A stretch of 64,000 bases of DNA, from the IMG/VR virus record IMGVR_UViG_3300022699_000224, positions 1 to 64,000 of that record. One strand, given 5' to 3'. Each line of letters begins with the position of its first letter. The stretch's first letter is position 1. Position numbers and translations under genes: made by a program. Positions 1,555-30,609 of this stretch are shown here, piece after piece. The notes under the pieces are model-generated. The model saw only the letters and a program-made list of their open reading frames with translations. It was not told the origin of the DNA and made no database searches. The DNA comes from a virus.

Positions 1555-1557
1555 TTT

Positions 1558-1731
1558 ATTCTATTAGAATATGAATTTAATCATTTACAAAATAAATTAC
1601 ATAATAGAAATTTAAGAAAATTTAGAGATAATAAATTAGAAACAAACGATTTTAGAGATAATATAAAACCTCGCCCTTTATTTAAAGTAATACAAGGAGA
1701 TATTGAAAAATGGGAAAGGATAAAGAAATAA
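1558..1731 (+). CDS. Possible small gene lacking a standard start codon
   Basis: An open frame from 1555 to TAA at 1729-1731, in phase with the gene before it, encodes a charged peptide ending KPRPLFKVIQGDIEKW and a few more residues. That ending looks like real coding sequence. No ATG, GTG or TTG start is present after the upstream TAA; ATT at 1558 is the only candidate near the 5' end. It overlaps the start of the GGDEF gene. It may be read from a rare start or be the tail of an interrupted gene. Confidence 0.3.
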   Translation: MLLEYEFNHLQNKLHNRNLRKFRDNKLETNDFRDNIKPRPLFKVIQGDIEKWERIKK

Positions 1732-2189
1732 GAAAATTAAAACAACAATTAGCAAGATATAAAAATCTTTCGTATAAAGACTCTCTAACTAATTTATGGA
1801 ATAGAAGAAAATTAAAACAAGATATAAAAAGATATAAAAGTTTAAGAAGAAGATTTGGAATAAAATTTTTATTAATAATGATAGATATAAATAAATTTAA
1901 AGAAATTAATGATACTAAAGGACATAAATTTGGTGATAATATTCTAAAAAAAATAGCAAAAAAACTAATAAAAAATATAAGAAATTATGAAAATGTATAT
2001 AGAATTTCTGGTGATGAATTTGTGATGATTATTTCTCATTATAAAAATTATGAAATAATTATTAGAAGAATTAAACGTATATTAAAACATATAAATATTA
2101 ACGCAAGTATAGGTATTTGTAAAATAGAGAAAAACAATTGTTTAGATATTGCAGATAAAAATATGTATAAAAACAAGAGGAAAAAATGA
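1710..2189 (+). CDS. GGDEF-domain protein, diguanylate cyclase-like
   Basis: A 159-residue protein that is almost entirely one GGDEF domain. DSLTNLWNRR (residues 24-33) is the conserved entry of the fold. IDINKFKEIND (58-68) carries the metal-binding aspartate and GHKFGDNIL (71-79) the nucleotide-contact segment. The signature at 100-104 is SGDEF instead of GGDEF. Family members make cyclic di-GMP from two GTP; some variants with S or A in the first position remain active. No sensor domain or membrane segment precedes it, only a short N-terminal helix. The stop overlaps the start of the RuvB-like gene (ATGA). Domain assignment is firm; activity is open. Confidence 0.85.
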   Translation: MGKDKEIRKLKQQLARYKNLSYKDSLTNLWNRRKLKQDIKRYKSLRRRFGIKFLLIMIDINKFKEINDTKGHKFGDNILKKIAKKLIKNIRNYENVYRISGDEFVMIISHYKNYEIIIRRIKRILKHININASIGICKIEKNNCLDIADKNMYKNKRKK

Positions 2190-3325
2190 TTATTATTTTA
2201 ACCTTATTCATTATAACTATAATCGTGTTAGGTGCAAATAAAGGAATTAGAAACATATCAAATAATATAAATAATTTAAATAATGAACGTTACGATAATA
2301 CTGAAAATATGGATAATTATCCTTTACAAGTAGAAGTTGTAAATACAAATAAAAATTTAGAAAAATATGATTTCTTTGTAGATAGAAAAGAAGATAAATT
2401 AGATACTGAACCTAAAAATTGGGAAGAATATATAGGACAGGAAGAAACTAAATCTACTATAAGAGAAACATTACAAGCAGTTAATAACGATAAAACTATT
2501 CCTTATCCTCATTTATTAATAAGTGGAAATGCAGGTTACGGAAAAAGTGCATTAATACATTTATTATCTAAAAAAAGTCAATTTCCGTTAATAGAAACTG
2601 TTGCAGGGAATTTAAAAGAAAAAGAAGATATATATGAATTACTTGCTAAACTTACAAAAGAATTTCCATTTAGTATAATTTTTATTGATGAAATTCATGG
2701 ATTAAAAAAGGAAATAGGAGAAATTTTATTACCAATAACTCAAACTTTTAAAGTTAATAATAGACCTATACCTTATTTTACCCTTGCAGGTGCTACTACT
2801 GATTTAGGTGCATTAGCAAAAAAATTAAGTCCTTTGGTAGATAGATGTAAACAAAAATTTATTTTAAGACCTTATACCAATAAAGAATTAGCAAAAATTA
2901 TAAAAAATCAAGCTATAAAAAGAGATTTAGAATTTACTAAAGATACTTTACTTGAAATAGCATCAAGAAGCAGAGAAACTCCAAGATTAGCATTAAGTTT
3001 ATTAGATAATATTTATTATTATGCTAAATTTAAACGAATAAATAAAACAAGCAAAGGGGTGGCTATAAAGAAAATGAATAATTTAAGAATATATGAAAAT
3101 GGTGTAACAGATAAAGATATTAATTTGTTATCTTATCTTAGTAATCAAAAAAATCCAGTTGGATTAGATACTATTATTCAAGTATTAAATACTGATAAAT
3201 TAACTTATCAATATTATATAGAACCGTTTTTAGTTAGAAAAAGATTTATTAGTAAAACTCCAAGAGGAAGGATTATAGGCAAAGAAGGAGAAATATATTT
3301 AAAAACTCATAAAATAAAAATATAA
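2186..3325 (+). CDS. ruvB: RuvB-like Holliday junction branch-migration ATPase with N-terminal membrane anchor
   Basis: A 379-residue AAA+ protein. Residues 1-17 form a hydrophobic helix, followed by a roughly 60-residue low-complexity linker absent from cellular RuvB. The ATPase core starts with WEEYIGQEE (79-87). Walker A is GNAGYGKSA (114-122), Walker B FIDEIH (166-171), sensor 1 AGATTD (201-206) and sensor 2 ETPR (264-267). A C-terminal winged-helix part contains KTPRGR, as in RuvB. A RuvC-like nuclease is encoded at 22427-23011, so branch migration and resolution may be phage-encoded. No RuvA was seen. The membrane anchor is unusual for this family. Confidence 0.85.
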   Translation: MIIILTLFIITIIVLGANKGIRNISNNINNLNNERYDNTENMDNYPLQVEVVNTNKNLEKYDFFVDRKEDKLDTEPKNWEEYIGQEETKSTIRETLQAVNNDKTIPYPHLLISGNAGYGKSALIHLLSKKSQFPLIETVAGNLKEKEDIYELLAKLTKEFPFSIIFIDEIHGLKKEIGEILLPITQTFKVNNRPIPYFTLAGATTDLGALAKKLSPLVDRCKQKFILRPYTNKELAKIIKNQAIKRDLEFTKDTLLEIASRSRETPRLALSLLDNIYYYAKFKRINKTSKGVAIKKMNNLRIYENGVTDKDINLLSYLSNQKNPVGLDTIIQVLNTDKLTYQYYIEPFLVRKRFISKTPRGRIIGKEGEIYLKTHKIKI

Positions 3326-3334
3326 GGAGATAAA

Positions 3335-4063
3335 ATGAAAAAATGTATATATTTATTAGGTGATAATTATAATTTAAAACGTTATGAATATGAGCAAATA
3401 AAGGAATTAAAAGATAAATTAGAAAAAAATAATATTATATTAGGTAATGGAGTTAGGTTAGGTAATAATGTTGAGTTAGGTAATAGAGTTAGGTTAGGTA
3501 ATTATGTTATATTAGGTAATAATGTTGAGTTAGGTAATAGAGTTAGGTTAGGTAATTATGTTAAGTTAGGTAATAATGTTGAGTTAGGTAATAGAGTTGA
3601 GTTAGGTAATGGAGTTGAGTTAGGTAATTATGTTATATTAGGTAATGATGTTGAGTTAGGTAATAATATTGAGTTAGGTGATTATGTTAGGTTAGGTAAT
3701 GGAGTTGAATTAAACAAAAATTATACGTTAAAGCAATTAATATTAGGAAGTTTGAATATTATACCTGATAAAAATGGAAATTATTTGTTATATAAAAGGG
3801 TAAATAAAATAGTTAAGGGTAAATATGCTTCTATATATGATAAATCATTTATATATGAAAATAATAAAATAGCAAAAGCGAAAAAAATAAATGAGAATAT
3901 TAATAATCCCTGTGCAGAAAGTTTACATGTATCTACACCTAATTATTGGAATACAGGAGATACTTTAATAGAAGTAAAAGTTAATATTAAGGATATTATT
4001 ACATGTAGGTTAGGGAAATTAAGAGTTAGAAAATTAAAAGTATTAAGAGAGGTAAAAATATAA
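3335..4063 (+). CDS. Hexapeptide-repeat protein with C-terminal phage domain
   Basis: A 242-residue protein with a good AAGGAGAT ribosome binding site. Residues 36-125 are fifteen LGNxVx hexapeptides, predicted to form a left-handed beta-helix. The C-terminal domain contains CAESLHVSTPNYWNTGDT followed by an alternating valine/isoleucine strand region. That resembles a DUF7666-like domain (CxxGLH-type) found at the end of phage repeat proteins. Its N-terminal half matches the truncated protein at 1-483, but the C-terminal domains differ, so repeat arms seem to be combined with different heads. Role unknown. Confidence 0.8.
   Translation: MKKCIYLLGDNYNLKRYEYEQIKELKDKLEKNNIILGNGVRLGNNVELGNRVRLGNYVILGNNVELGNRVRLGNYVKLGNNVELGNRVELGNGVELGNYVILGNDVELGNNIELGDYVRLGNGVELNKNYTLKQLILGSLNIIPDKNGNYLLYKRVNKIVKGKYASIYDKSFIYENNKIAKAKKINENINNPCAESLHVSTPNYWNTGDTLIEVKVNIKDIITCRLGKLRVRKLKVLREVKI
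3440..3709 (+). repeat. Second array of 18-base hexapeptide-coding repeats
   Basis: Fifteen in-frame 18-base units encode LGNGVR, LGNNVE, LGNRVR, LGNYVI and variants. The order NNVE-NRVR-NYV recurs as a three-unit block, consistent with duplication of 54-base segments. The unit is the same as in the array at 76-273. Confidence 0.85.
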
Positions 4064-4245: not shown

Positions 4246-4573
4246 AAGACTAAAAAATAGAAGTATTAATTCTTTAAAGAATTTTATTTCTAAATCTCGC
4301 AAAAGAAAATTAAGCAAAAATAAACTTAATCTTATAAAAAACTTGATAAAAGAAAAGGAAAAATACAACAAATTATTAGCTAAAAAAATTATTAATTCTC
4401 CATTAGCTAAACTTGCAAAAATAAAAATAATAGCACAGAAAAAAATAAATATTAATAAAAAAATAAATGCAAGTGATTTATTATTAACTATGTGGCAAAT
4501 CATAATAGAAGCAGAAAAAAGTAAGCCAAAATATAAAAAATTAAAAGAATATATAGAGGATTATAATGATTAA
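4229..4573 (+). CDS. Basic helical hypothetical protein
   Basis: A 114-residue, strongly basic, helix-rich protein. The ATG at 4229 was chosen over a GTG at 4217 because AAAGGAG (4211-4217) is at normal distance from it. The stop overlaps the integrase start by 8 bases, suggesting co-expression with the recombinase. It could be a DNA-binding accessory protein; that is inference from charge and position. Confidence 0.5.
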   Translation: MTKLSERLKNRSINSLKNFISKSRKRKLSKNKLNLIKNLIKEKEKYNKLLAKKIINSPLAKLAKIKIIAQKKININKKINASDLLLTMWQIIIEAEKSKPKYKKLKEYIEDYND

Positions 4574-5357
4574 TGAATTTAAAGAGTATTTAATAATAAA
4601 TGGATATTCAAAATCTACTATTACAGATTATCTCTATCGTGTAAATATTTTATTAAAAGAAAACAAAATAGAAGATTTAAACGAAGAAAATATTAGAAAT
4701 TTTTTCTTTAAACTTAAAGACAAATATAATCCAATAACTATAAATCTTTTTAGAAGTGCTATTAAATTATTTTTAGAGTTTTTAGATAAGAATATAAGAC
4801 TTCCTAAAAGTATAAAAATAGAAGATAAATTACCAGATAGTATAGAAGAAAAATTTTTTAGAAAGAAAATAATTCCAACAGTTGAGAAATATTGCGATAA
4901 ACCTTTAAAAAACAAAGCAATACTATACTTTATGTTTTATACTGGAATAAGAGTAAGCGAATTTGAATTTATTTACAGAAAAAATATAGATTTTGAAAAA
5001 CGCAGAGTCAAAATATATATACCAAAAACAAAAGAAGAAAGAATTATACCATTTACAAAAGAAGTAGCAATTATTTTAAAAAGTTTTTTTATTACAGAAC
5101 CAGAAGATAAAAATGCTTTTAATATTACTAAAAGTGGTGTGCAAAGATTATGTGATAGACTAAAAAAATATTTTCCAGATATTAAATTGAGACCTCATCT
5201 ATTTAGACATTCTTATGCTACTATGATGTTAGAAAGAGGTTTAGACGTAAGCAAAGTAAGTAAATTGTTAGGACATAAAAATATAAATACTACTCTTAAA
5301 TATTTAAGATTAGATATAGATACTTTACAGAAAGGATATGATAAAGCATTTGAATAA
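4566..5357 (+). CDS. Tyrosine recombinase / phage integrase (XerC/D-like)
   Basis: A 263-residue protein with the N-terminal SAM-like core-binding domain (residues 1-75) and a C-terminal catalytic domain. The catalytic set is visible: R129 (GIRVSE), K154, H211 and R214 (HLFRH), H237 (LLGHKN) and Y246. The length is close to compact XerC/D-type enzymes. It may integrate the genome or resolve concatemers. No attachment site is recognisable beside it and no tRNA gene flanks it. Small membrane-protein genes follow. Confidence 0.9.
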   Translation: MINEFKEYLIINGYSKSTITDYLYRVNILLKENKIEDLNEENIRNFFFKLKDKYNPITINLFRSAIKLFLEFLDKNIRLPKSIKIEDKLPDSIEEKFFRKKIIPTVEKYCDKPLKNKAILYFMFYTGIRVSEFEFIYRKNIDFEKRRVKIYIPKTKEERIIPFTKEVAIILKSFFITEPEDKNAFNITKSGVQRLCDRLKKYFPDIKLRPHLFRHSYATMMLERGLDVSKVSKLLGHKNINTTLKYLRLDIDTLQKGYDKAFE

Positions 5358-6430: not shown

Positions 6431-7146
6431 TTAATTTTTATTATATAACTAATCCATTTGATATTCAAGAAAAAGATTTTAAGAAAACTATAAATTTGAT
6501 GATGCAAATATTTCCATTTGATTGGGATTTTATTAATAAATTAAAACTTTCTATTGCTTCTTCTTGTTCTAATGGAAAAAAATATTCTAGATTTCTTTTG
6601 GTAGTAAAAATTAAAAAAAATATAGTAGGGTTTTGTATATTTAAAATTTGGTTAAATTATAATATAGCTATTTTAGAATATTTAGGAGTAGATAAAAATT
6701 ATCAAAATAAAGGACTAGGCTCTGCTTTATATGTTTATATGAAAAATTTTTTAAATATACGAAAACGTAAATGTTTATTATTTAATGCAGATAGAGATAC
6801 TGATTTTAAAAATAAATTACCTACGAAAGAAATTAATAGAAGAGAAGCATTATTAGAATTTTACGAAAAATTAGGTGCAAGACCTATTGAAGGAATTGTG
6901 TATGAACATCCATTAGAAATTACTAGAGAACGAAAAAATTACGAACACCCATATTTATTGATGGATACTATTTTTCCTTATGGAAAAGGAATATCAGGTA
7001 AAATATTGAGATATATTATAGAAATAGAAATGATAAATTATTATGATATATCTCCTATTAATCCTGTTTTATTGAAAATAACTAATTCTATAGATAAAAA
7101 TAAAATTTATAAAGTAAGAAAAAAATTATATACTTATGAAAAATAA
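6427..7146 (+). CDS. GNAT-family N-acetyltransferase
   Basis: A 239-residue protein. The acetyl-CoA pyrophosphate-binding motif is YQNKGLGSALY (92-102), after the usual beta strand (ILEYLGVD, 82-89), with an FYEKLGARP segment as in many GNATs. The fold normally takes about 150 residues; the extra C-terminal 90 residues are unassigned. The ATG overlaps the preceding stop and its own 3' end overlaps the M14 peptidase gene, so the two are translated together. The substrate is unknown and may be the same peptide or amino-group compound handled by the M14 enzyme. Confidence 0.75.
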   Translation: MINFYYITNPFDIQEKDFKKTINLMMQIFPFDWDFINKLKLSIASSCSNGKKYSRFLLVVKIKKNIVGFCIFKIWLNYNIAILEYLGVDKNYQNKGLGSALYVYMKNFLNIRKRKCLLFNADRDTDFKNKLPTKEINRREALLEFYEKLGARPIEGIVYEHPLEITRERKNYEHPYLLMDTIFPYGKGISGKILRYIIEIEMINYYDISPINPVLLKITNSIDKNKIYKVRKKLYTYEK

Positions 7147-7903
7147 AAAAATAAAAAGAAATTATTTAAGACTTATTAATTCTTTTCTCAATTTAAATAT
7201 ACCATTTGAGAAAGAAATAATAGGCACTGTTATATATGATAATATTTGTTATCCTATTTTAAAATTTATTAATAAAGAATATAATAGTAAATATCAAGTA
7301 ATTATACAAGCAGGTATTCATGGAGAAGAAGCTATAAGTATAAGAGTGTTATATAAATTTTTAAAAGAATTAACTCCTAAATATATTAAAGCATATAATT
7401 TTATTATTTTCCCTTGCCTAAATCCTTATGGATATACTTATAATGTAAGATATAATAGGTTTGGACAAAGTATTAATGATAGTAGTTTTAGTGAAAAAAT
7501 TAAAGAACTAAAAATAGTTAAAAAACATTATCCTATTGATGTAGATTTATTTATTGATATTCATGGAGACTGTGGTAAATATGGAAAACATCGTATATAT
7601 GCTTATGAAAGAGTAAGACCTGAAATGAAATCTATTGTTGAACAGGCATTTAAAGAGAATAAAAAAATAATTCCTTATATTACTAATGAAACTATATATG
7701 GCGAATATTGTAAAAATGGAGTTATATTTAATCCAGAGAGAGATAATTCGATACAAGATTATATGAGTGATATAGGTTGCGATTGTTCAATTACTTTAGA
7801 AATTCCTGGAAATTTGAAAGGACTTAATAGAATAATAGGCGGAATTAGAGTTTTGAAAAGTATTTTAAGAAATTTTTTAAAATATAAAGGGAGAAATGAC
7901 TAA
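7136..7903 (+). CDS. M14-family zinc carboxypeptidase / deacylase-like
   Basis: A 255-residue protein with the M14 zinc set: H62 and E65 in IHGEEA, H143 in FIDIHGD, and the general-base glutamate E222 in TLEIPG. NPYGYTYNVRYN with SIND (about 96-115) matches the substrate-binding arginine region. The family removes C-terminal residues from peptides or deacylates amino acids (succinylglutamate desuccinylase / aspartoacylase branch). There is no signal peptide, so it acts in the cytoplasm. It is coupled to the GNAT gene by an 11-base overlap. Confidence 0.8.
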   Translation: MKNKKIKRNYLRLINSFLNLNIPFEKEIIGTVIYDNICYPILKFINKEYNSKYQVIIQAGIHGEEAISIRVLYKFLKELTPKYIKAYNFIIFPCLNPYGYTYNVRYNRFGQSINDSSFSEKIKELKIVKKHYPIDVDLFIDIHGDCGKYGKHRIYAYERVRPEMKSIVEQAFKENKKIIPYITNETIYGEYCKNGVIFNPERDNSIQDYMSDIGCDCSITLEIPGNLKGLNRIIGGIRVLKSILRNFLKYKGRND

Positions 7904-13315: not shown

Positions 13316-13897
13316 ATGAGCAGGAAAAAGAAAATGAAAGAGATTAAAATTGACCAAATTCTTCTAAATGCTAGACAAATATTTTTGTTTAAAGAAATAA
13401 ATGAAAAATCTTCATTAGATATAGTTAATAAATTAGTAAGTTTAGATAATATAAAAACTGATGAAATTTGTTTATATATAAATTCACCAGGTGGTGATAT
13501 AGATTATGGTTTTGCTATTATAGATGCAATAAAAGCTATAAAATCTCATGTAATTACTATTATATCAGGTCATGCATGTTCTATGGCAGGGGTGGTTTCT
13601 ATTGCAGGGGATAAAAGATTAATAACAGAAAATAGCGTATGGATGTCTCATGATATGTCGGGAGGTATTCATGGAGATTATACTACTAAAATTTTAGATA
13701 GAAGTGATTATTTAAAAAGAGAACAGAGACGTTTATTTGATTTTTTGAAAATTCATACTAAATTATCTAATAAAGAATTACAAATTGCTCAACATGGAGA
13801 GTTATGGTTATATCCTGAAGAATGTAAAGAAAAAGGAATTGTAGATAAAATTATTAAAGTTAATAAAGTTAGTGCAAAAAGGAGAAGAAAAAAATGA
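13316..13897 (+). CDS. clpP: ClpP-like serine protease
   Basis: A 193-residue protein with the ClpP fold. INSPGGDIDYG (56-66) is the substrate-strand region, GHACSMAG (85-92) carries the nucleophile S89, and WMSHDMSGG (109-117) the catalytic H112. The length is that of cellular ClpP. In phages, ClpP-like proteins are often head-maturation proteases, but this gene is beside a secreted protease and replication genes, not capsid genes. No ClpX/A partner is seen. It overlaps the trypsin-like gene by 4 bases. Confidence 0.85.
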   Translation: MSRKKKMKEIKIDQILLNARQIFLFKEINEKSSLDIVNKLVSLDNIKTDEICLYINSPGGDIDYGFAIIDAIKAIKSHVITIISGHACSMAGVVSIAGDKRLITENSVWMSHDMSGGIHGDYTTKILDRSDYLKREQRRLFDFLKIHTKLSNKELQIAQHGELWLYPEECKEKGIVDKIIKVNKVSAKRRRKK

Positions 13898-14547
13898 TTA
13901 AAAATGTATTTATATGGCTGTTAACTATTATATTTATGATGTTTATTACATGTATTTCTTTAGCGCATGCTAGAGGTTCTAATATTAAAGATTATTTAAC
14001 AGGTGATGTTAAAGTTTACGATAATATAGAATCTCATGCAGTTGCTATTTTTTCTTTAGGAGGTCTAGGTATTTCTAAATGTTCAGGTATAGTTGTTAAG
14101 GAAGATAAAACTAATACATATATATTAACAGCTAAACATTGTGTAGCGCCTACAGAGGAAGTTTATGTGGAAAATAAATTAGTAGATTTAATTATTTCGC
14201 CTATAAATGATGATATAAGTATGATGATAATTAAAGGAAAGATTAAAGATAAAACTCCTGTCAAATTTGCTTCTAAAAATTCTGAAATAGGCGAAGTTGT
14301 TTATCATGTAAGTTATCCTAAATTTACAGGCAGATATGCAATTAAAGGAGAAATTTTAAAATATACAGAAGATTGGGTTTTTGTAGCATTTAAAACTATA
14401 GGTGGTTGTTCTGGTGGTGGTGTTTATAATAAAAATGCAGAATTAGTAGGGATATTATGGGGAGGATTTACCTTTGAACCTGTAAGTATATTTGAATCAT
14501 TAGAAGATATAAAAAGTTTTTTAAATAAAATAGATATTATAGATTAG
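13894..14547 (+). CDS. Secreted trypsin-like serine protease
   Basis: A 217-residue protein. Residues 1-27 form a Sec signal peptide (basic start, long hydrophobic core, AHA-R cleavage region). The catalytic triad is visible: H82 in TAKHC, an aspartate at 106-107 in NDDISMM, and S173 in GGCSGGG. C83 and the GGCSGG cysteine could matter for disulfides. The product is expected outside the cytoplasmic membrane, which is uncommon for a phage non-virion enzyme. It may cleave host envelope proteins or protect against an external factor. Confidence 0.8.
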   Translation: MIKNVFIWLLTIIFMMFITCISLAHARGSNIKDYLTGDVKVYDNIESHAVAIFSLGGLGISKCSGIVVKEDKTNTYILTAKHCVAPTEEVYVENKLVDLIISPINDDISMMIIKGKIKDKTPVKFASKNSEIGEVVYHVSYPKFTGRYAIKGEILKYTEDWVFVAFKTIGGCSGGGVYNKNAELVGILWGGFTFEPVSIFESLEDIKSFLNKIDIID

Positions 14548-17242: not shown

Positions 17243-20200
17243 ATGGAAAAACAAATAATATTAAGCAATTTAATTAAATATTTAAAATTAAAAGATATAC
17301 CTATTAAGAAATCTGGTAAAATAATTATGTTAGAATGTCCTTTATGTAATTCACAACCAAATTCTGCTAATGTAATTCCAAATACTAATATAATTAATTG
17401 TTTTAAATGTAAAAAGAAATATAACTTATTAGATATTGCTGATAAATTAGAAAAAGATTTTCCTAATAAAGAAAAAGACCAATTACATTTTTTAAAAAAA
17501 TTATTGAAAATTAACATAAAAACGGAAGTAGATATAGATAATATTAATCAATATTTAGATTTCTATGAAAAAAATCATTTTGATTTAGTGCCTATAATAG
17601 CAAATGGCAAAAGACCAATAGAAAAAAATTGGACTAATAAATCTCATAAAAATAGACAAGAGTGGCAAACTTGGATTGCTAATAATCATAATATAGGAGT
17701 TAAAACTGGTAAAATATCTAATATAACAGTAATAGATATAGATGCAATGCCTTCTGATATGAAAGATAAATGGTATAAGGGTAAATTAACTAAAGAAGAA
17801 AAAAAAGAAGCAATTAAAATTAGAGATACAAAAATAAAGATGATATTAGATGATTTAGAACATCCTGAAAATGACACTTTATATCAAACTAATTTAGGTG
17901 GTATGCATTTATTTTATAAATATATTTCTGAATTCCCCAAAACTAGTATTGATTATAAAGAAATTAAAATTGATGTAGAAAATGATGGCGGTCAGGTAGT
18001 GATATATCCATCTTCAGTTTTTAAAACTAATAGAATATTTAAATTGAATCCTATCAAAACAATGCCTAAAAAAATAAAAAAATTTTTTACAGATAAAATA
18101 ACTACTCCTAAGAAAACTCATAGTGAAGATATAAAAGAAGCAATAGAAACAGAAAATTTTCAAATAGACCCTTCTAAGTTCTTATTAAAGAATAATAATC
18201 TAGAAGGAGTCTGTAATAATGAGTTTATTAAATTAGGTGGTATTTTAAGAAAACGATTAAATTTGAAACAGACAGAATATGTTTTAAACATGCTTAATCA
18301 GCATATGTTAGAAAATCCTATGCAATCTAAAACTATTAGGTCTATGATGAGAGAATTAGATAAATATCAGTTATTTGATGAAGATGAATTAGCTAATAAA
18401 ATTCAAGAATATTTAAAAGACGTAGAAGAGGCTAGTAGAACGGAAATAGCACTAGCTGTTGTAGGAACTAATAGAGGAGAAGATAAAAAAAGAGTAGATA
18501 AAGTATTAAAACATTTAGTGAAAGAGAGTTATATTATTAAAAAAGGAAGAAGTTATTTAACAAGAAAAAAAGTAGAATGGAGAGAAGAATTAATTAATAT
18601 AGGAACTCCTATAGATTTCCAAATGCCTTATTTTAATGATGTAATGACTTTTAATTATGGTGATTTAGTATTAATCGGTTCTAAAAATGCACATGGAAAA
18701 ACTCATATAGCTATGAATATAGTTAAACAACTAGTAGACCAAAAGATTATTCCTTACTATTTATCTTTAGAGGGTGGATGTTTTGATGAGCAAACAGAAA
18801 TACTTACAGAGCAAGGGTGGAAATATTTTAAAGATTTAAATAGGAAAGAAAAAGTAATGACATTAAATCCAGATACTGAAGAAATAGAATATCAGAAACC
18901 TACAAAATATTTTGAATATAATTATGATGGGAACTTAATCAATATAAATACTAGATATTTGGATTTATTAATAACTCCTAACCATAAACAACCTAGTAGA
19001 GTGAGAACTACAGGAAAAATAAGATTATATAATGCTCTTGATTTACCATATCATAATCCAATTCCTAAAACTGGAAACTGGAAAGGAGAAAATCAAAAAT
19101 ATTTTATATTACCTGGAATTACCTGGAATAAATATCTTGGAAAACATAAAAAATATTATAAGATTAAAGAAAAAAGTTTAAAAATAAAGATGGAAGATTG
19201 GGTAAAATTTTTTGGATTATTTTTAGCAGAAGGCTCTGTCGAAAAATATAGAGTTTCTATCTCACAATTTAGAAACAATAAAAAATTTATAGAAGTAAAA
19301 AATATTATGGATAAATTTCCATTTAGTTATACATATTCAAATCATCAGTTTAGGATTATAGATAAAAGACTAGGCATCTTTCTTAAAAAATTTGGAAAAT
19401 CTAACGAAAAATATATCCCTGATGAGTTGAAAAAATTAAATCCTAAGCTATTGAGTGAATTTCTTTATGGATATTATTTGGGAGATGGCTGTTATAAGAA
19501 CAAAAGAAGGGAATTTTATACAGTATCAAAAAAATTAGCAGGGGATTTACAAGAGATTATAACAAAAACTTCCAATTTTGCTAATATAAGTGTAAGAAAA
19601 TGTAAAAATACTAAAATGACTATAAATGGAAAATCTTATACTAGAAAACATAATTTATATATTGTAAGTGAAATAACAACGGTTAAAGATGTATATGCTA
19701 AAAGACAGAATAGACGAAATGTTTATTATAAAGGAAAAATATATGATGTAGAAGTTCCTAAACACCATATACTTCTAGTTAGAAGAAATGGAAAAAATTG
19801 CTGGTCTGGAAATTCAAGATGGGCTAAAATTGCATTACAATTAGGATTAAAAGAGGGAGATTTTAAGTGGCATGAAACTTCTAATCCTCATGATGTAGAA
19901 TTAGAAAAAAATTCTGTTACTATAATAGATTGGTTATGTCCTAAAAATTATGCAGAAACAGATAAAATACTACAATCTTTAAATGATGAAGTAAGAGACA
20001 AAAATGGAATATTGATAGTATTTATGCAATTAAGAGATAATAACGAATGGTTAGCTAAAGATTTAGTTAAACAATTCCCATCTTTTGCTTGTAGATATAT
20101 TTATGATAATGAAAGTAGTGGCGAATATGGAAAATTTAAAATAGATAAAATAAGAGAAGCTAAAATCAGAATAAAATCTTATGAACTACCTGCTAGATAT

Positions 20201-20287
20201 AATTGGGAAACTAAAAAATTATCTAGAATAGATAAATCAAAAGATGAAGAAATAGATAATATAGAAGATGAGGTTTTAGATGAATAG
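17243..20287 (+). CDS. Primase-polymerase / replicative helicase, interrupted by an intein
   Basis: A 1014-residue precursor. An N-terminal zinc knuckle (C32, C35, C53, C56) is followed by an archaeo-eukaryotic primase/PrimPol domain. That domain has the DxD pair D165/D167 in VIDIDAM, NLGGMHLFYKY and NDGGQVVIYPSS. A linker leads to a RecA-like helicase core with Walker A GSKNAHGKT (479-487) and, after the intein, a Walker B-like TIIDWL and FMQLR. The intein occupies residues 513-857, leaving a mature protein of 669 residues. It would make primers and unwind DNA at the fork. The nuclease gene at 20280 overlaps its end. Confidence 0.85.
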   Translation: MEKQIILSNLIKYLKLKDIPIKKSGKIIMLECPLCNSQPNSANVIPNTNIINCFKCKKKYNLLDIADKLEKDFPNKEKDQLHFLKKLLKINIKTEVDIDNINQYLDFYEKNHFDLVPIIANGKRPIEKNWTNKSHKNRQEWQTWIANNHNIGVKTGKISNITVIDIDAMPSDMKDKWYKGKLTKEEKKEAIKIRDTKIKMILDDLEHPENDTLYQTNLGGMHLFYKYISEFPKTSIDYKEIKIDVENDGGQVVIYPSSVFKTNRIFKLNPIKTMPKKIKKFFTDKITTPKKTHSEDIKEAIETENFQIDPSKFLLKNNNLEGVCNNEFIKLGGILRKRLNLKQTEYVLNMLNQHMLENPMQSKTIRSMMRELDKYQLFDEDELANKIQEYLKDVEEASRTEIALAVVGTNRGEDKKRVDKVLKHLVKESYIIKKGRSYLTRKKVEWREELINIGTPIDFQMPYFNDVMTFNYGDLVLIGSKNAHGKTHIAMNIVKQLVDQKIIPYYLSLEGGCFDEQTEILTEQGWKYFKDLNRKEKVMTLNPDTEEIEYQKPTKYFEYNYDGNLININTRYLDLLITPNHKQPSRVRTTGKIRLYNALDLPYHNPIPKTGNWKGENQKYFILPGITWNKYLGKHKKYYKIKEKSLKIKMEDWVKFFGLFLAEGSVEKYRVSISQFRNNKKFIEVKNIMDKFPFSYTYSNHQFRIIDKRLGIFLKKFGKSNEKYIPDELKKLNPKLLSEFLYGYYLGDGCYKNKRREFYTVSKKLAGDLQEIITKTSNFANISVRKCKNTKMTINGKSYTRKHNLYIVSEITTVKDVYAKRQNRRNVYYKGKIYDVEVPKHHILLVRRNGKNCWSGNSRWAKIALQLGLKEGDFKWHETSNPHDVELEKNSVTIIDWLCPKNYAETDKILQSLNDEVRDKNGILIVFMQLRDNNEWLAKDLVKQFPSFACRYIYDNESSGEYGKFKIDKIREAKIRIKSYELPARYNWETKKLSRIDKSKDEEIDNIEDEVLDE
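18779..19813 (+). mobile_element. Intein with LAGLIDADG homing endonuclease in the primase-helicase
   Basis: 345 residues from C513 to N857 of the host protein, followed by Ser +1. Block A is CFDEQTEILTEQGWKYFKDL, block B is TPNHKQ, and the endonuclease motifs are FFGLFLAEGSV and LYGYYLGDGCY. Block F is YDVEVPKHHILLV, and the C-terminal splice junction reads GN-S. The penultimate residue is Gly instead of the usual His. It sits in the ATPase core, shortly after Walker A, a typical conserved insertion point. Confidence 0.9.
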
Positions 20288-23283: not shown

Positions 23284-23520
23284 ATGCTTACATATTTAAT
23301 CCCTAAAAATTGTCAAATAGTAAAACATGAATGTCCTATTTATCATGAAAAAGATTATTTATTGCAAAATTTATATTCATTAGATTTAGAAATGAAAATA
23401 GTAGAGGTAACTGTTAATAGCATTAGTTTAACTGAAGATGGAGAAATTATCAAATATAGTGTTTGTCCAAGATGCGAAACTAAATTTATTAGAAAATTAG
23501 GAGAAAAAATAAATGTCTAA
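23284..23520 (+). CDS. Zinc-ribbon hypothetical protein
   Basis: A 78-residue protein with an early Cys/His pair (VKHECPIYH) and a C-terminal CPRCETKF knuckle. It overlaps the recA start by 8 bases. Function unknown. Confidence 0.5.
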   Translation: MLTYLIPKNCQIVKHECPIYHEKDYLLQNLYSLDLEMKIVEVTVNSISLTEDGEIIKYSVCPRCETKFIRKLGEKINV

Positions 23521-25735
23521 AAAAGATTTAAATGATAAATTATCTCAACTAGAAAAAAATTTTGGATTAAAAAGAGCTTCCTCTCAAAAAAATGTAGAAT
23601 TTATTAGGACTGGTATATATTCGTTAGATTATGTATTAGATGGAGGTTTACAATTAGTAGAAGGAGGTCATAAAATAGAATTTTATGGCAAAGAAAGTTC
23701 TGGTAAGACTACTTTTGCTCAAAAGGTGGTAGCTAAATATCAAAAATTAGATAAAGTATGCGTATGGGTAGTTTCAGAGAGTTTTCATAAAGATTGGGCT
23801 AAAAAATTAGGAGTAAATACTGATAAATTATTATTATCTTATCCTGATTCTGTTGAAGATGCTACAGAAACTATTTTAAAGATAGTGCCAGAAGTAGATT
23901 TAATTGTAGTAGATAGTGTTGCAAGTTTGATTCCTGAAGTTGAAATAGAAAAATCAATGCATGAACAAACTAGAGGAGTTCAAGCTAAGGCTTATTCTCA
24001 ATTTTGTCGTAAATTATATAAAAAAATACTTAATCAAAAAGTTTCGTTAATTTTTATTAATCAATTAAGAGAAAAGATGGGAGTGCTTTATGGCAATCCA
24101 GAAATTACTCCTTGTGGTAGAGCATTAAAACATATGTATGATTGTTTAGGAGCAGATACTATAATTTATAACGGTAAAAAATTTATACCTTTAAAATATT
24201 TAAAAAGTAAAGTAACAAGTTATAATTTTAAGCATAAAAAATTCCAAAATAATAAATTATTACAAAAAAAAGCACAAAAATTTAAAAATTATTTAGAATT
24301 AGATTTAGGTATAACAAGAATAGATGCTTCGGAAAATCATAAATTTTATAATATTTCTTCTGATGGAACTTTACAGTTAAAAAGAGTTAAAAATCTCAAG
24401 AAAGGAGATATGCTATTATTATCGAAAGGGAAAAATTTTAAAATTAAAAATCCTTCATTTACTGACAATAAATTTGTAAGATTATTAGGATATTATGTTG
24501 GAGATGGATATAAAATAAATAAAGAAAATCATATAATTATAGCGGATAAAAATAGAAATTTCTTAAAATATTATCAAGATTTACTTAAAGAAAAGAGCTT
24601 TAAAATTAATAAATCAAGAAACACTAATTTATTACACATTAAAACAAAATTTAGTAATCATTTATTTGAGACTATTAGACAATATAAATTAGATGTAAAA
24701 GCTTCCAAAAAAAAGTTACCCTTTCTTTTTTATAATTTTTCAGATAACTGTCTTAAAGATTTTATAGCGGGATTTTATGATGCAGAGGGAAATGATAATA
24801 CAAATTTACCTACATTTCATTCCTCATCCGAGAAATTGTTAAGAAATATTCAATTTATGCTTTGGAGATTAGGAATAAGGTCAAATATTAATAAAAGAAA
24901 ATCGCAATCTTTAAAAAAATTACGAAATGATAAAAAATACTATACAATGTATGCTTTGTATGTATCTGATTCAAAAAGTATTATTAAATTTAAACGAGTT
25001 ATACCCACATTGAAAAATATTAAACTACCAAAATATAATTCAAAAATGCAATATAATTTTGTAGAATTAATAAAGGAATATCATAATATATTATTAAAAC
25101 GAAAGGAAATATCAAGATATTTGGGAAGAAATAATTCATTACAGCATTTAATTAAACAAAAGACTATTTCTTTAGATAGATTAAAAAATATCTATAGTAA
25201 GACTAAAAATTTAAGTTTTTTAAATGAACAAAACACAAAATATGAGAGAATATTAAAATTAAAACAAAATTTCGATTTTGTAAAAATAAAAAAAATCACT
25301 AAAAAAGCAACAAATTTTAAATATTTAGGCTTTAAAAAGAAATTAATAGATATTCAAGTTGAAAATGATGAAAATTTTATAGCAAACGGTATATTGTCTC
25401 ATAACTCAAGAATTGAATTTAGAACTAAAAAACCTATTGAAGTTGGCACTAAAAATAAAAAAGAAAGAATTGGAACGGAAATTCATTTATATGCTAAAAA
25501 AAATAAATTAGGAAAACCTCAAAGAAAAATTATAACCGATTTTTATTTTGATGGAACTATTGATAATGCTAAATCGTTATTACATGCAGGAATTAAATAT
25601 GACGTTATAGATTTTAGTGGAAAAACATATAAATTTGAAGATGTTAAAGCGGTTGGTAAAGTTAATTTTATTGAAGCAATGACTGAAAAAGAATGGAAAA
25701 AAGTGGAAAAAGAAATATGGCGAAGAATAAAATAG
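23513..25735 (+). CDS. recA: RecA/UvsX-type recombinase interrupted by an intein
   Basis: A 740-residue precursor. Walker A is GKESSGKTT (59-67). VVDSVASLIP is Walker B, and INQLREKMGVLYGNPEITPCG is the L2 region with the RecA-type QLR. The intein fills residues 211-631, so the mature recombinase is 319 residues, short but normal for phage RecA. The C-terminal extein has IEFRTKKPIEVG and a basic end. It would drive strand exchange together with RuvB, RuvC and the Mre11/Rad50 pair. Confidence 0.9.
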   Translation: MSKKDLNDKLSQLEKNFGLKRASSQKNVEFIRTGIYSLDYVLDGGLQLVEGGHKIEFYGKESSGKTTFAQKVVAKYQKLDKVCVWVVSESFHKDWAKKLGVNTDKLLLSYPDSVEDATETILKIVPEVDLIVVDSVASLIPEVEIEKSMHEQTRGVQAKAYSQFCRKLYKKILNQKVSLIFINQLREKMGVLYGNPEITPCGRALKHMYDCLGADTIIYNGKKFIPLKYLKSKVTSYNFKHKKFQNNKLLQKKAQKFKNYLELDLGITRIDASENHKFYNISSDGTLQLKRVKNLKKGDMLLLSKGKNFKIKNPSFTDNKFVRLLGYYVGDGYKINKENHIIIADKNRNFLKYYQDLLKEKSFKINKSRNTNLLHIKTKFSNHLFETIRQYKLDVKASKKKLPFLFYNFSDNCLKDFIAGFYDAEGNDNTNLPTFHSSSEKLLRNIQFMLWRLGIRSNINKRKSQSLKKLRNDKKYYTMYALYVSDSKSIIKFKRVIPTLKNIKLPKYNSKMQYNFVELIKEYHNILLKRKEISRYLGRNNSLQHLIKQKTISLDRLKNIYSKTKNLSFLNEQNTKYERILKLKQNFDFVKIKKITKKATNFKYLGFKKKLIDIQVENDENFIANGILSHNSRIEFRTKKPIEVGTKNKKERIGTEIHLYAKKNKLGKPQRKIITDFYFDGTIDNAKSLLHAGIKYDVIDFSGKTYKFEDVKAVGKVNFIEAMTEKEWKKVEKEIWRRIK
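24143..25405 (+). mobile_element. Intein with LAGLIDADG homing endonuclease in RecA
   Basis: 421 residues from C211 to N631, followed by Ser +1. It starts CLGADTIIYNGKKFIPL. Block B is near ENHKFY, the endonuclease motifs are LLGYYVGDGYK and FIAGFYDAEGN, and block F/G is LIDIQVENDENFIANGILSHN, with the canonical HN-S junction (the last residues are SHN). It is inserted after the L2 region of RecA. Confidence 0.9.
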
Positions 25736-26929: not shown

Positions 26930-27652
26930 ATGTTAGGAATTATTATGTTATTAGGATTATTAATGTTGATTACGATAATTCATGAATTAGGGCATTTAGT
27001 AGTTGCAAAACTTAGTGGAGTAAAAGTAGAAATATTTAGTATAGGATTTGGATTAAAATTATTTGGATTTAAAATAGGAGAAACTGAATATAGAATATCA
27101 TTAATACCCTTTGGAGGATATTGCGAAATAAAAGAATATAGTAATTCTAATAAAGAAGAAAATAATACTTTATATAGTAAAAGATATTTAATAAAAGTAG
27201 CAATAGCATTAGCAGGGGTAATAGCTAATTTGCTAACTGCTTTTGGTATATTATTTATGGTATCTTATTTTATAAGTAAATCTTTTATTCTAGCTTTTGA
27301 ATATAGTATAAATTTTATATATGATATTATATTAGTAACTATAATAAGTTTAAAATTATTATTTACAGGAAAACTTGTATTTAAAGGATATTTATTAAAT
27401 ACAGTTAATATAATAGGACAATATAATAATATTATATATTGGCTATTATTTTTTGTTATTTTCAGTATTACAGTAGCAATATTTAATTTGATACCTTTTC
27501 CATCTTTGGATGGTTCATTGCCTTTTTTATCTAGTTTAGAAAAAATATTTGATAAGAAAAAAGCTATTAAAATAAATAATATTATATGTAAAATAGGATT
27601 TATTATTTTAATAATTTTAACTGTTCTATGCGTTATTATAGGAGTTTTATAA
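26930..27652 (+). CDS. Site-2 protease-like membrane metalloprotease (M50)
   Basis: A 240-residue protein. HELGH at 18-22 in a membrane helix is the zinc site, and NLIPFPSLDG (186-195) is the second conserved M50 motif with its aspartate at 194. At least four hydrophobic helices are present. Families of this type (RseP, SpoIVFB) cut transmembrane anti-sigma factors or signal peptides inside the membrane. No PDZ domain. It is rare in phages and could rewire host envelope-stress or sigma-factor control. Confidence 0.85.
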   Translation: MLGIIMLLGLLMLITIIHELGHLVVAKLSGVKVEIFSIGFGLKLFGFKIGETEYRISLIPFGGYCEIKEYSNSNKEENNTLYSKRYLIKVAIALAGVIANLLTAFGILFMVSYFISKSFILAFEYSINFIYDIILVTIISLKLLFTGKLVFKGYLLNTVNIIGQYNNIIYWLLFFVIFSITVAIFNLIPFPSLDGSLPFLSSLEKIFDKKKAIKINNIICKIGFIILIILTVLCVIIGVL

Positions 27653-29949: not shown

Positions 29950-30609
29950 ATGTATTTAATAAAAAGAGTTTTAGAATGGAATAAAGATAATAATGGTTGG
30001 AGTATTTGTCCTAATGATAATTCTATTAAAATTAAAATAGGCGATGAAGTAAATGTTAGCCCACGTGCTGTAATAGATAAAGAAGCTATAATTGGAAACA
30101 GAGTTATAATTGGAGATGATACAGAAATAGGCGATACTACATATATAGATGATGATGTTGAAATTGGTAATAATGTTGATATTGGCTCTGATGTAATAAT
30201 TAGCAGTCATACTAAAATTGGTAATCAAGTTATAATTGGTAGTATGACTCAAATGGGTTTTTATACTAAAATTGGCAATCAAGTTACCATAGGCAAATGC
30301 ACAGGATTAGGATTAGGAACTACTATAGGCGATGGAACTAAAATAAGCAGTGGGGTAAATCTATATGCAGGAATTGAAATTGGAGATAATGCTAAGATTT
30401 TAAAAACTCCTTTACAAATTCAAGGTTCTAAAGATTTGGTTATATATGCTGAAGATTTAATTCAGATAGGTATGGATAGTAATAATAGAATGAGTATAAA
30501 AGAATGGGAAGAAAAAGCAGATAATATATTAAAAAAATGTAATTATACTTCAAAACAGATAAAAGAATATAAACAATATTTAAATTTTATAAAAGGATTT
30601 AATAAGTAA
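29950..30609 (+). CDS. Left-handed beta-helix (hexapeptide) protein, diverged repeats
   Basis: A 219-residue protein. Residues 29-150 form many hexapeptide turns (IGNRVI, IGDDTE, IGNNVD, IGNQVT) that have diverged in sequence, unlike the near-identical arrays at 76 and 3440. The C-terminal part (LQIQGSK, SIKEWEEKA, KEYKQYL) matches that of the protein at 1-483, so these are paralogues with one shared head domain. N-terminal WNKDNNGWSICP is unique. No acyl-CoA or active-site histidine pattern is evident. Confidence 0.75.
   Translation: MYLIKRVLEWNKDNNGWSICPNDNSIKIKIGDEVNVSPRAVIDKEAIIGNRVIIGDDTEIGDTTYIDDDVEIGNNVDIGSDVIISSHTKIGNQVIIGSMTQMGFYTKIGNQVTIGKCTGLGLGTTIGDGTKISSGVNLYAGIEIGDNAKILKTPLQIQGSKDLVIYAEDLIQIGMDSNNRMSIKEWEEKADNILKKCNYTSKQIKEYKQYLNFIKGFNK

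Follow-up and report, generated by a model that had tools for sequence, protein, structure and literature searches.

What does a phage do with a compact GGDEF-domain gene: does its product make cyclic di-GMP (c-di-GMP), or does it bind nucleotides for another end? The question is raised by positions 1710–2189 of the window, by which we mean the whole 64,000-nucleotide stretch analysed here. Until now, annotations of phage diguanylate cyclases have been scattered, with no known purpose.

The GGDEF gene and its product

The gene and its ribosome-binding site were located as follows:

1695–1701, + strand: AAGGAGA, Shine-Dalgarno-like, at normal spacing 5′ of the GGDEF start (sequence)
1710–2189, + strand: compact stand-alone GGDEF (diguanylate cyclase-type) protein of 159 aa, ATG start (profile, fold, and residue evidence)

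The ribosome-binding site was strong. The 159-aa protein matched Pfam PF00990 (GGDEF) at 4.6e-31, scoring 108 bits (cut-off 23.8) and covering positions 2–157 of the 161 in the profile, and NCBIfam TIGR00254 with a score of 102.5 against a cut-off of 37.4. Its relatives of solved structure were of the diguanylate cyclase/GGDEF type or contained such a domain, the best being 4urs, a diguanylate cyclase of T. maritima (2.3e-19). In the AlphaFold model (AF2, 50-row alignment; mean pLDDT 97.1), a helix at residues 2–21 was followed by the alternation typical of GGDEF domains. The model had the GGDEF palm-type fold: Foldseek against PDB gave 7e6g (SiaD) as the best match (1.0e-12), all top matches were diguanylate cyclases, and the TM value was about 0.8 with many such enzymes. 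Against BFVD, phage G gp350 and the SP-15 protein ranked first as the best viral fold matches. No sensor domain was present. The open reading frame, the PF00990 match, and the fold thus agreed with the sequence-only reading, which had proposed a phage-encoded, single compact GGDEF protein resembling a diguanylate cyclase.

The signature was R-I-S-G-D-E-F (S100-G-D-E-F104), with Ser100 in place of the first glycine of the canonical GG[DE]EF. PleD numbering was mapped without gaps: D327, N335, D344, and E370 of PleD were taken to be D59, N67, D76, and D102, and K442 to correspond to K156. The metal ligands (D59, D102), the base-binding N67 and D76, and the catalytic lysine, K156, were all present, as expected from the earlier proposal of an SGDEF signature with most catalytic residues. 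At the product-inhibition I-site, defined as RxxD five residues before the signature, the protein had R91-N-Y-E94 (RxxE). It ended at residue 159, short of the usual 'GRN' tail, which we take to be the equivalent of R446 of PleD. In Hypr GGDEF proteins (cGAMP synthases), the guanine-specificity aspartate (D344 of PleD) is replaced; here, D76 was retained.

Host contamination as the source of the gene was ruled out, as the whole virus record (89,485 bp) carried terminase-like and ClpP-like genes and a single GGDEF. The large terminase-like gene, named from its neighbourhood and sequence with no PHROGs match, was conserved across the lineage, and the ClpP-like gene was of the head-maturation-protease type. 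The phage is tailed and known from metagenomes only; no isolated relatives were found by terminase among 50,697 phage records.

A virus-only GGDEF family

A single-sequence scan for relatives of the window protein found none. Profile scans of IMG/VR retrieved homologues in contigs L014 (51% identity to the window protein), L015 and L016 (53%), L017 (45%), and L018 and L094 (49%), and two more, in L104 and L106 (both about 48%), were reached through the RuvB-like neighbour described below. L015/L016 and L018/L094 were near-identical pairs, and the family was counted as seven distinct members including the window protein. Beyond this set, identity fell to about 35% and the matches were generic GGDEF proteins. 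Pairwise identity within the family was 39–52%, and the best cellular homologue among the matches listed, from a scan of about 85,000 species genomes, was 41% identical. In a tree of 92 sequences, comprising the seven members and 85 other viral and cellular GGDEF proteins, the seven formed one virus-only clade (SH-aLRT 98). Many GenBank 'phage' GGDEF matches (e.g., the DgcM region, L013) were host-derived or unannotated fragments and were rejected as phage precedents. The member in L104 (L104:4187–5200) was fused to an upstream segment that weakly matched an HNH endonuclease.

D59, K64, N67, G101, D102, E103, F104, and K156 were invariant in all seven members, and D76 was kept in six, with N in L106. 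At such divergence, this conservation is far beyond chance. Residue 100 was S in the window, L014, L017, and L018, E in L016, G in L106, and R in L104, and in L016, L104, and L106 one or two extra residues were inserted in the signature hairpin. Since the ligands were invariant and residue 100 was variable, the metal ligands are under selection and the first glycine is free to change. The sequence-only reading had counted loss of the metal ligands in homologues as evidence against a cyclase, and the opposite was seen. Of the SGDEF signature, whose conservation in related phages it had proposed to check, DEF was kept and the first residue varied. The consensus (G/S/A)G(D/E)EF, proposed for functional enzymes (PMC3974145), includes the window signature but not those of L016 (EGDEF), L104 (RGDEF), and L106 (GADEF). 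The I-site was RxxE in four of the seven, including the window protein, and RxxD in L014, L018, and L104.

The RuvB-like neighbour and the conserved locus

Two further genes belong to the locus:

2186–3325, + strand: RuvB-like AAA+ ATPase with an N-terminal hydrophobic anchor (Pfam RuvB_N 6e-19, RuvB_C 4e-18)
4566–5357, + strand: tyrosine recombinase (Pfam), part of the conserved locus

The ATG of the RuvB-like gene and the GGDEF stop overlapped within a 4-bp ATGA. The two genes are likely co-transcribed, and their products may be linked in function. The order GGDEF, RuvB-like, integrase was found in six distinct contigs (the window, L014, L016, L017, L104, and L106). The 4-bp overlap was identical in L014; in the other four, 0.3–1.1 kb separated the GGDEF and RuvB-like genes, which shared a strand and were followed by the tyrosine recombinase. 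RuvB-like copies of the two subgroups were only 26–28% identical, whereas the GGDEF proteins shared 46–52% with that of the window, so the order of the genes has persisted although the partner has diverged strongly. Walker A and B were intact in the RuvB-like protein. Its N-terminus was hydrophobic in the window, L004, L005, L016, and L017 and more weakly so in L014, and an ATPase with this anchor was a hallmark of the lineage.

Among the 12 distinct contigs carrying the RuvB-like gene, the GGDEF gene lay just upstream of it in six and was absent from six, two of which were short fragments. The GGDEF gene is therefore dispensable, which counts against an active cyclase. Full-length terminases across the lineage were 50–57% identical. 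In L110, one of the RuvB-like contigs lacking GGDEF, a stand-alone HD-GYP gene of the c-di-GMP phosphodiesterase type (L110:3082–3744; PF13487, 1.1e-34) was directly 3′ of the RuvB-like gene, in the corresponding locus. No EAL or PilZ proteins were found in the window lineage, which also counts against the cyclase. Applied to the neighbours of the GGDEF gene, PADLOC gave only one weak partial match (0.0025), for the RuvB-like ATPase.

A C-terminal remnant of a pyrimidine-dimer glycosylase gene was seen at window positions 1555–1731, its end overlapping the GGDEF start; it was 51% identical to the intact gene in L103. In L103, the intact gene was upstream of the RuvB-like gene; in L018, it was located about 1.4 kb 5′ of the GGDEF gene.

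Riboswitches beside a homologue

The homologue in L018 was found in a different and otherwise unrelated tailed phage, which had a portal, a major head protein, a terminase, and a DNA polymerase; neither the terminase nor the RuvB-like gene of the window lineage was found in it. Two tandem c-di-GMP-I aptamers (L018:6525–6600 and 6671–6743; 50.9 and 49.3 bits, gathering score 35) were immediately 3′ of its GGDEF gene, and a consensus promoter, TTGACA-17-TATACT, was located at 6462, 5′ of the aptamers. The 3′ strand of each aptamer can pair instead into a terminator ending in a U-run (−21.9 and −23.1 kcal/mol). Promoter, aptamers, and terminators together cover L018:6462–6790. This layout suggests ON switches for the ORF at 6787–7368, which belonged to no known family and had relatives only in the same phage; a gene for a sigma-70 region-4-like protein followed. 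In the window, no Rfam element, riboswitch included, matched even at E ≤ 1, a point against an active cyclase there, and no c-di-GMP-I element was found in any other contig of the window lineage.

Enzyme or binder

The window gene probably codes for an active diguanylate cyclase without a sensor, one that has long belonged to the phage lineage and increases c-di-GMP in the course of infection. The activity, dimerisation, timing, and benefit that we infer for it are as follows. The (+)-strand gene cluster of the phage would express the protein along with the membrane-anchored RuvB-like ATPase. Using its short N-terminal helix to dimerise, the protein would condense two GTP into c-di-GMP, the level of which would rise in the infected cell. 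With no sensor domain and a weakened I-site (RxxE), control would lie mainly in the timing of expression. The host may thereby be shifted toward a sessile state, or phage and host genes may be controlled via c-di-GMP receptors, or both; riboswitches like those beside the L018 homologue are candidate receptors. Enzymes with an SGDEF signature, ECA3270 and MbaA, make c-di-GMP (PMC3974145, PMC8079147), and in VCA0965 an Ala-to-Ser change at the first signature position abolished activity (PMC3974145). The variable, non-glycine first residue, the hairpin insertions in relatives, and the missing R446-equivalent tail all count against an active cyclase.

Because of this unusual hairpin, the main rival is a catalytically dead GGDEF protein: having bound GTP or c-di-GMP, it would serve as a receptor or as an allosteric partner, perhaps of the ATPase encoded by the overlapping RuvB-like gene. 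The degenerate first residue and hairpin insertions, the absent tail, and the close linkage to the ATPase gene seen in the window and in L014 fit such a role, but the metal ligands and guanine-binding residues have been kept despite deep divergence, the I-site that a c-di-GMP receptor needs is RxxE in four of seven members, and the L018 homologue occurs in a phage lacking the RuvB-like gene. The HD-GYP gene of L110 and the riboswitches of L018, both from relatives rather than the window itself, favour real c-di-GMP metabolism, and we regard a dead binder as unlikely, though worth keeping in mind. A product other than c-di-GMP, such as hybrid cGAMP or another cyclic nucleotide serving as a decoy against host cyclic-nucleotide defence, is improbable. 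The hairpin could alter substrate handling, D76 is N in L106, and nucleotide decoys are described on the host side (Panoptes, PMC12657218); against this, six of the seven members retain the guanine-specificity aspartate, and the associated features (the c-di-GMP-I riboswitches and the HD-GYP gene) relate to c-di-GMP. PADLOC gave no match for the GGDEF protein, and interference with cyclic-nucleotide signalling, raised in the sequence-only reading, gained no support. It is more improbable still that a host GGDEF gene was picked up as transient cargo with no lasting role. GGDEF genes abound in bacteria, and this one is missing from half of the related contigs, but cellular homologues reach at most 41% among the matches listed against 45–53% among viruses, the clade is virus-only, and the family has diverged roughly as much as the terminase, as expected of a long-resident gene.

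These phages may go further and run a c-di-GMP circuit of their own, a tentative proposal that we hold to be possible rather than probable: the cyclase would write the signal, the tandem riboswitches of at least one phage would read it and switch on the next phage gene, and the HD-GYP protein of a relative would erase it. If so, c-di-GMP would serve as a signal in the phage's control of its own genes, beyond being a means to change host behaviour.

Comparison with known systems

Phage diguanylate cyclases are already known (SP-15, phage G, and a Mu-like virus from the Cariaco Basin, PMC7785012), as are prophage c-di-GMP riboswitches in C. difficile; the virus-only compact GGDEF clade and the cyclase-plus-riboswitch arrangement are new. 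The proteins of Bacillus phages SP-15 (SP15_150, 183 aa, YP_009302537) and G (gp350, 254 aa) are likewise small and phage-encoded. They are about 32–33% identical to the window protein over the domain, fall outside its clade, and, unlike it, have a canonical GGEEF/GGDEF and N-terminal membrane segments; their gene neighbourhood also differs, with glycosyltransferases in SP-15. Bacterial diguanylate cyclases (T. maritima 4urs, SiaD 7e6g, DosC, DgcZ, PleD) have the fold and active-site residues in common with the window protein, which differs in its shorter C-terminal half (no GRN tail), absent sensor, non-glycine first residue, and weakened I-site. ECA3270 (Pectobacterium) and MbaA (Vibrio cholerae) share Ser at the first signature position but are cellular, and MbaA, a large sensor of several domains, also contains an EAL-type domain (PMC8079147).

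Other mobile elements carry diguanylate cyclases, namely DgcK/DgcL of SXT/R391 ICEs and Dgc137 of a Vibrio island (PMC10672970). In the available parts of these accounts and that of the Mu-like virus, mobile-element enzymes are proposed, as here, to alter host lifestyle through c-di-GMP synthesis, but are not reported as a virus-only clade with a RuvB-like ATPase or a phage riboswitch link. In the C. difficile prophages phiCD630-1 and phiCD630-2, phage genes are controlled by c-di-GMP-I riboswitches, as in L018 (PMC3649979, PMC7699646). The accessible portions of those reports describe an OFF-type switch before an antitoxin RNA and no phage-borne cyclase beside the riboswitches, whereas the tandem riboswitches of L018 appear to be of the ON type and adjoin a phage diguanylate cyclase gene. 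In the open-access literature searched, no report of a phage cyclase with adjoining phage riboswitches was found, a limited negative. The family, with its HD-GYP and riboswitch context, offers a testable case that some phages actively set host c-di-GMP; such phages may also read c-di-GMP in their own gene control.

Other features of the window and its relatives

A phage-encoded M50 site-2-protease-like protein (26930–27652; 2.6e-44) and a trypsin-like protease (13894–14547; 2.2e-11) were seen in the window. Long near-perfect hexapeptide repeats of the left-handed beta-helix type were present at 1–483, 3335–4063, and 29950–30609, among which Pfam Hexapep was confirmed for 3335–4063 only. Intein-like insertions, recognised by eye from the translations, were noted in primase/helicase-like, RecA-like, and tape-measure-like genes (window 17243–20287 and 23513–25735; L002 2631–6095).
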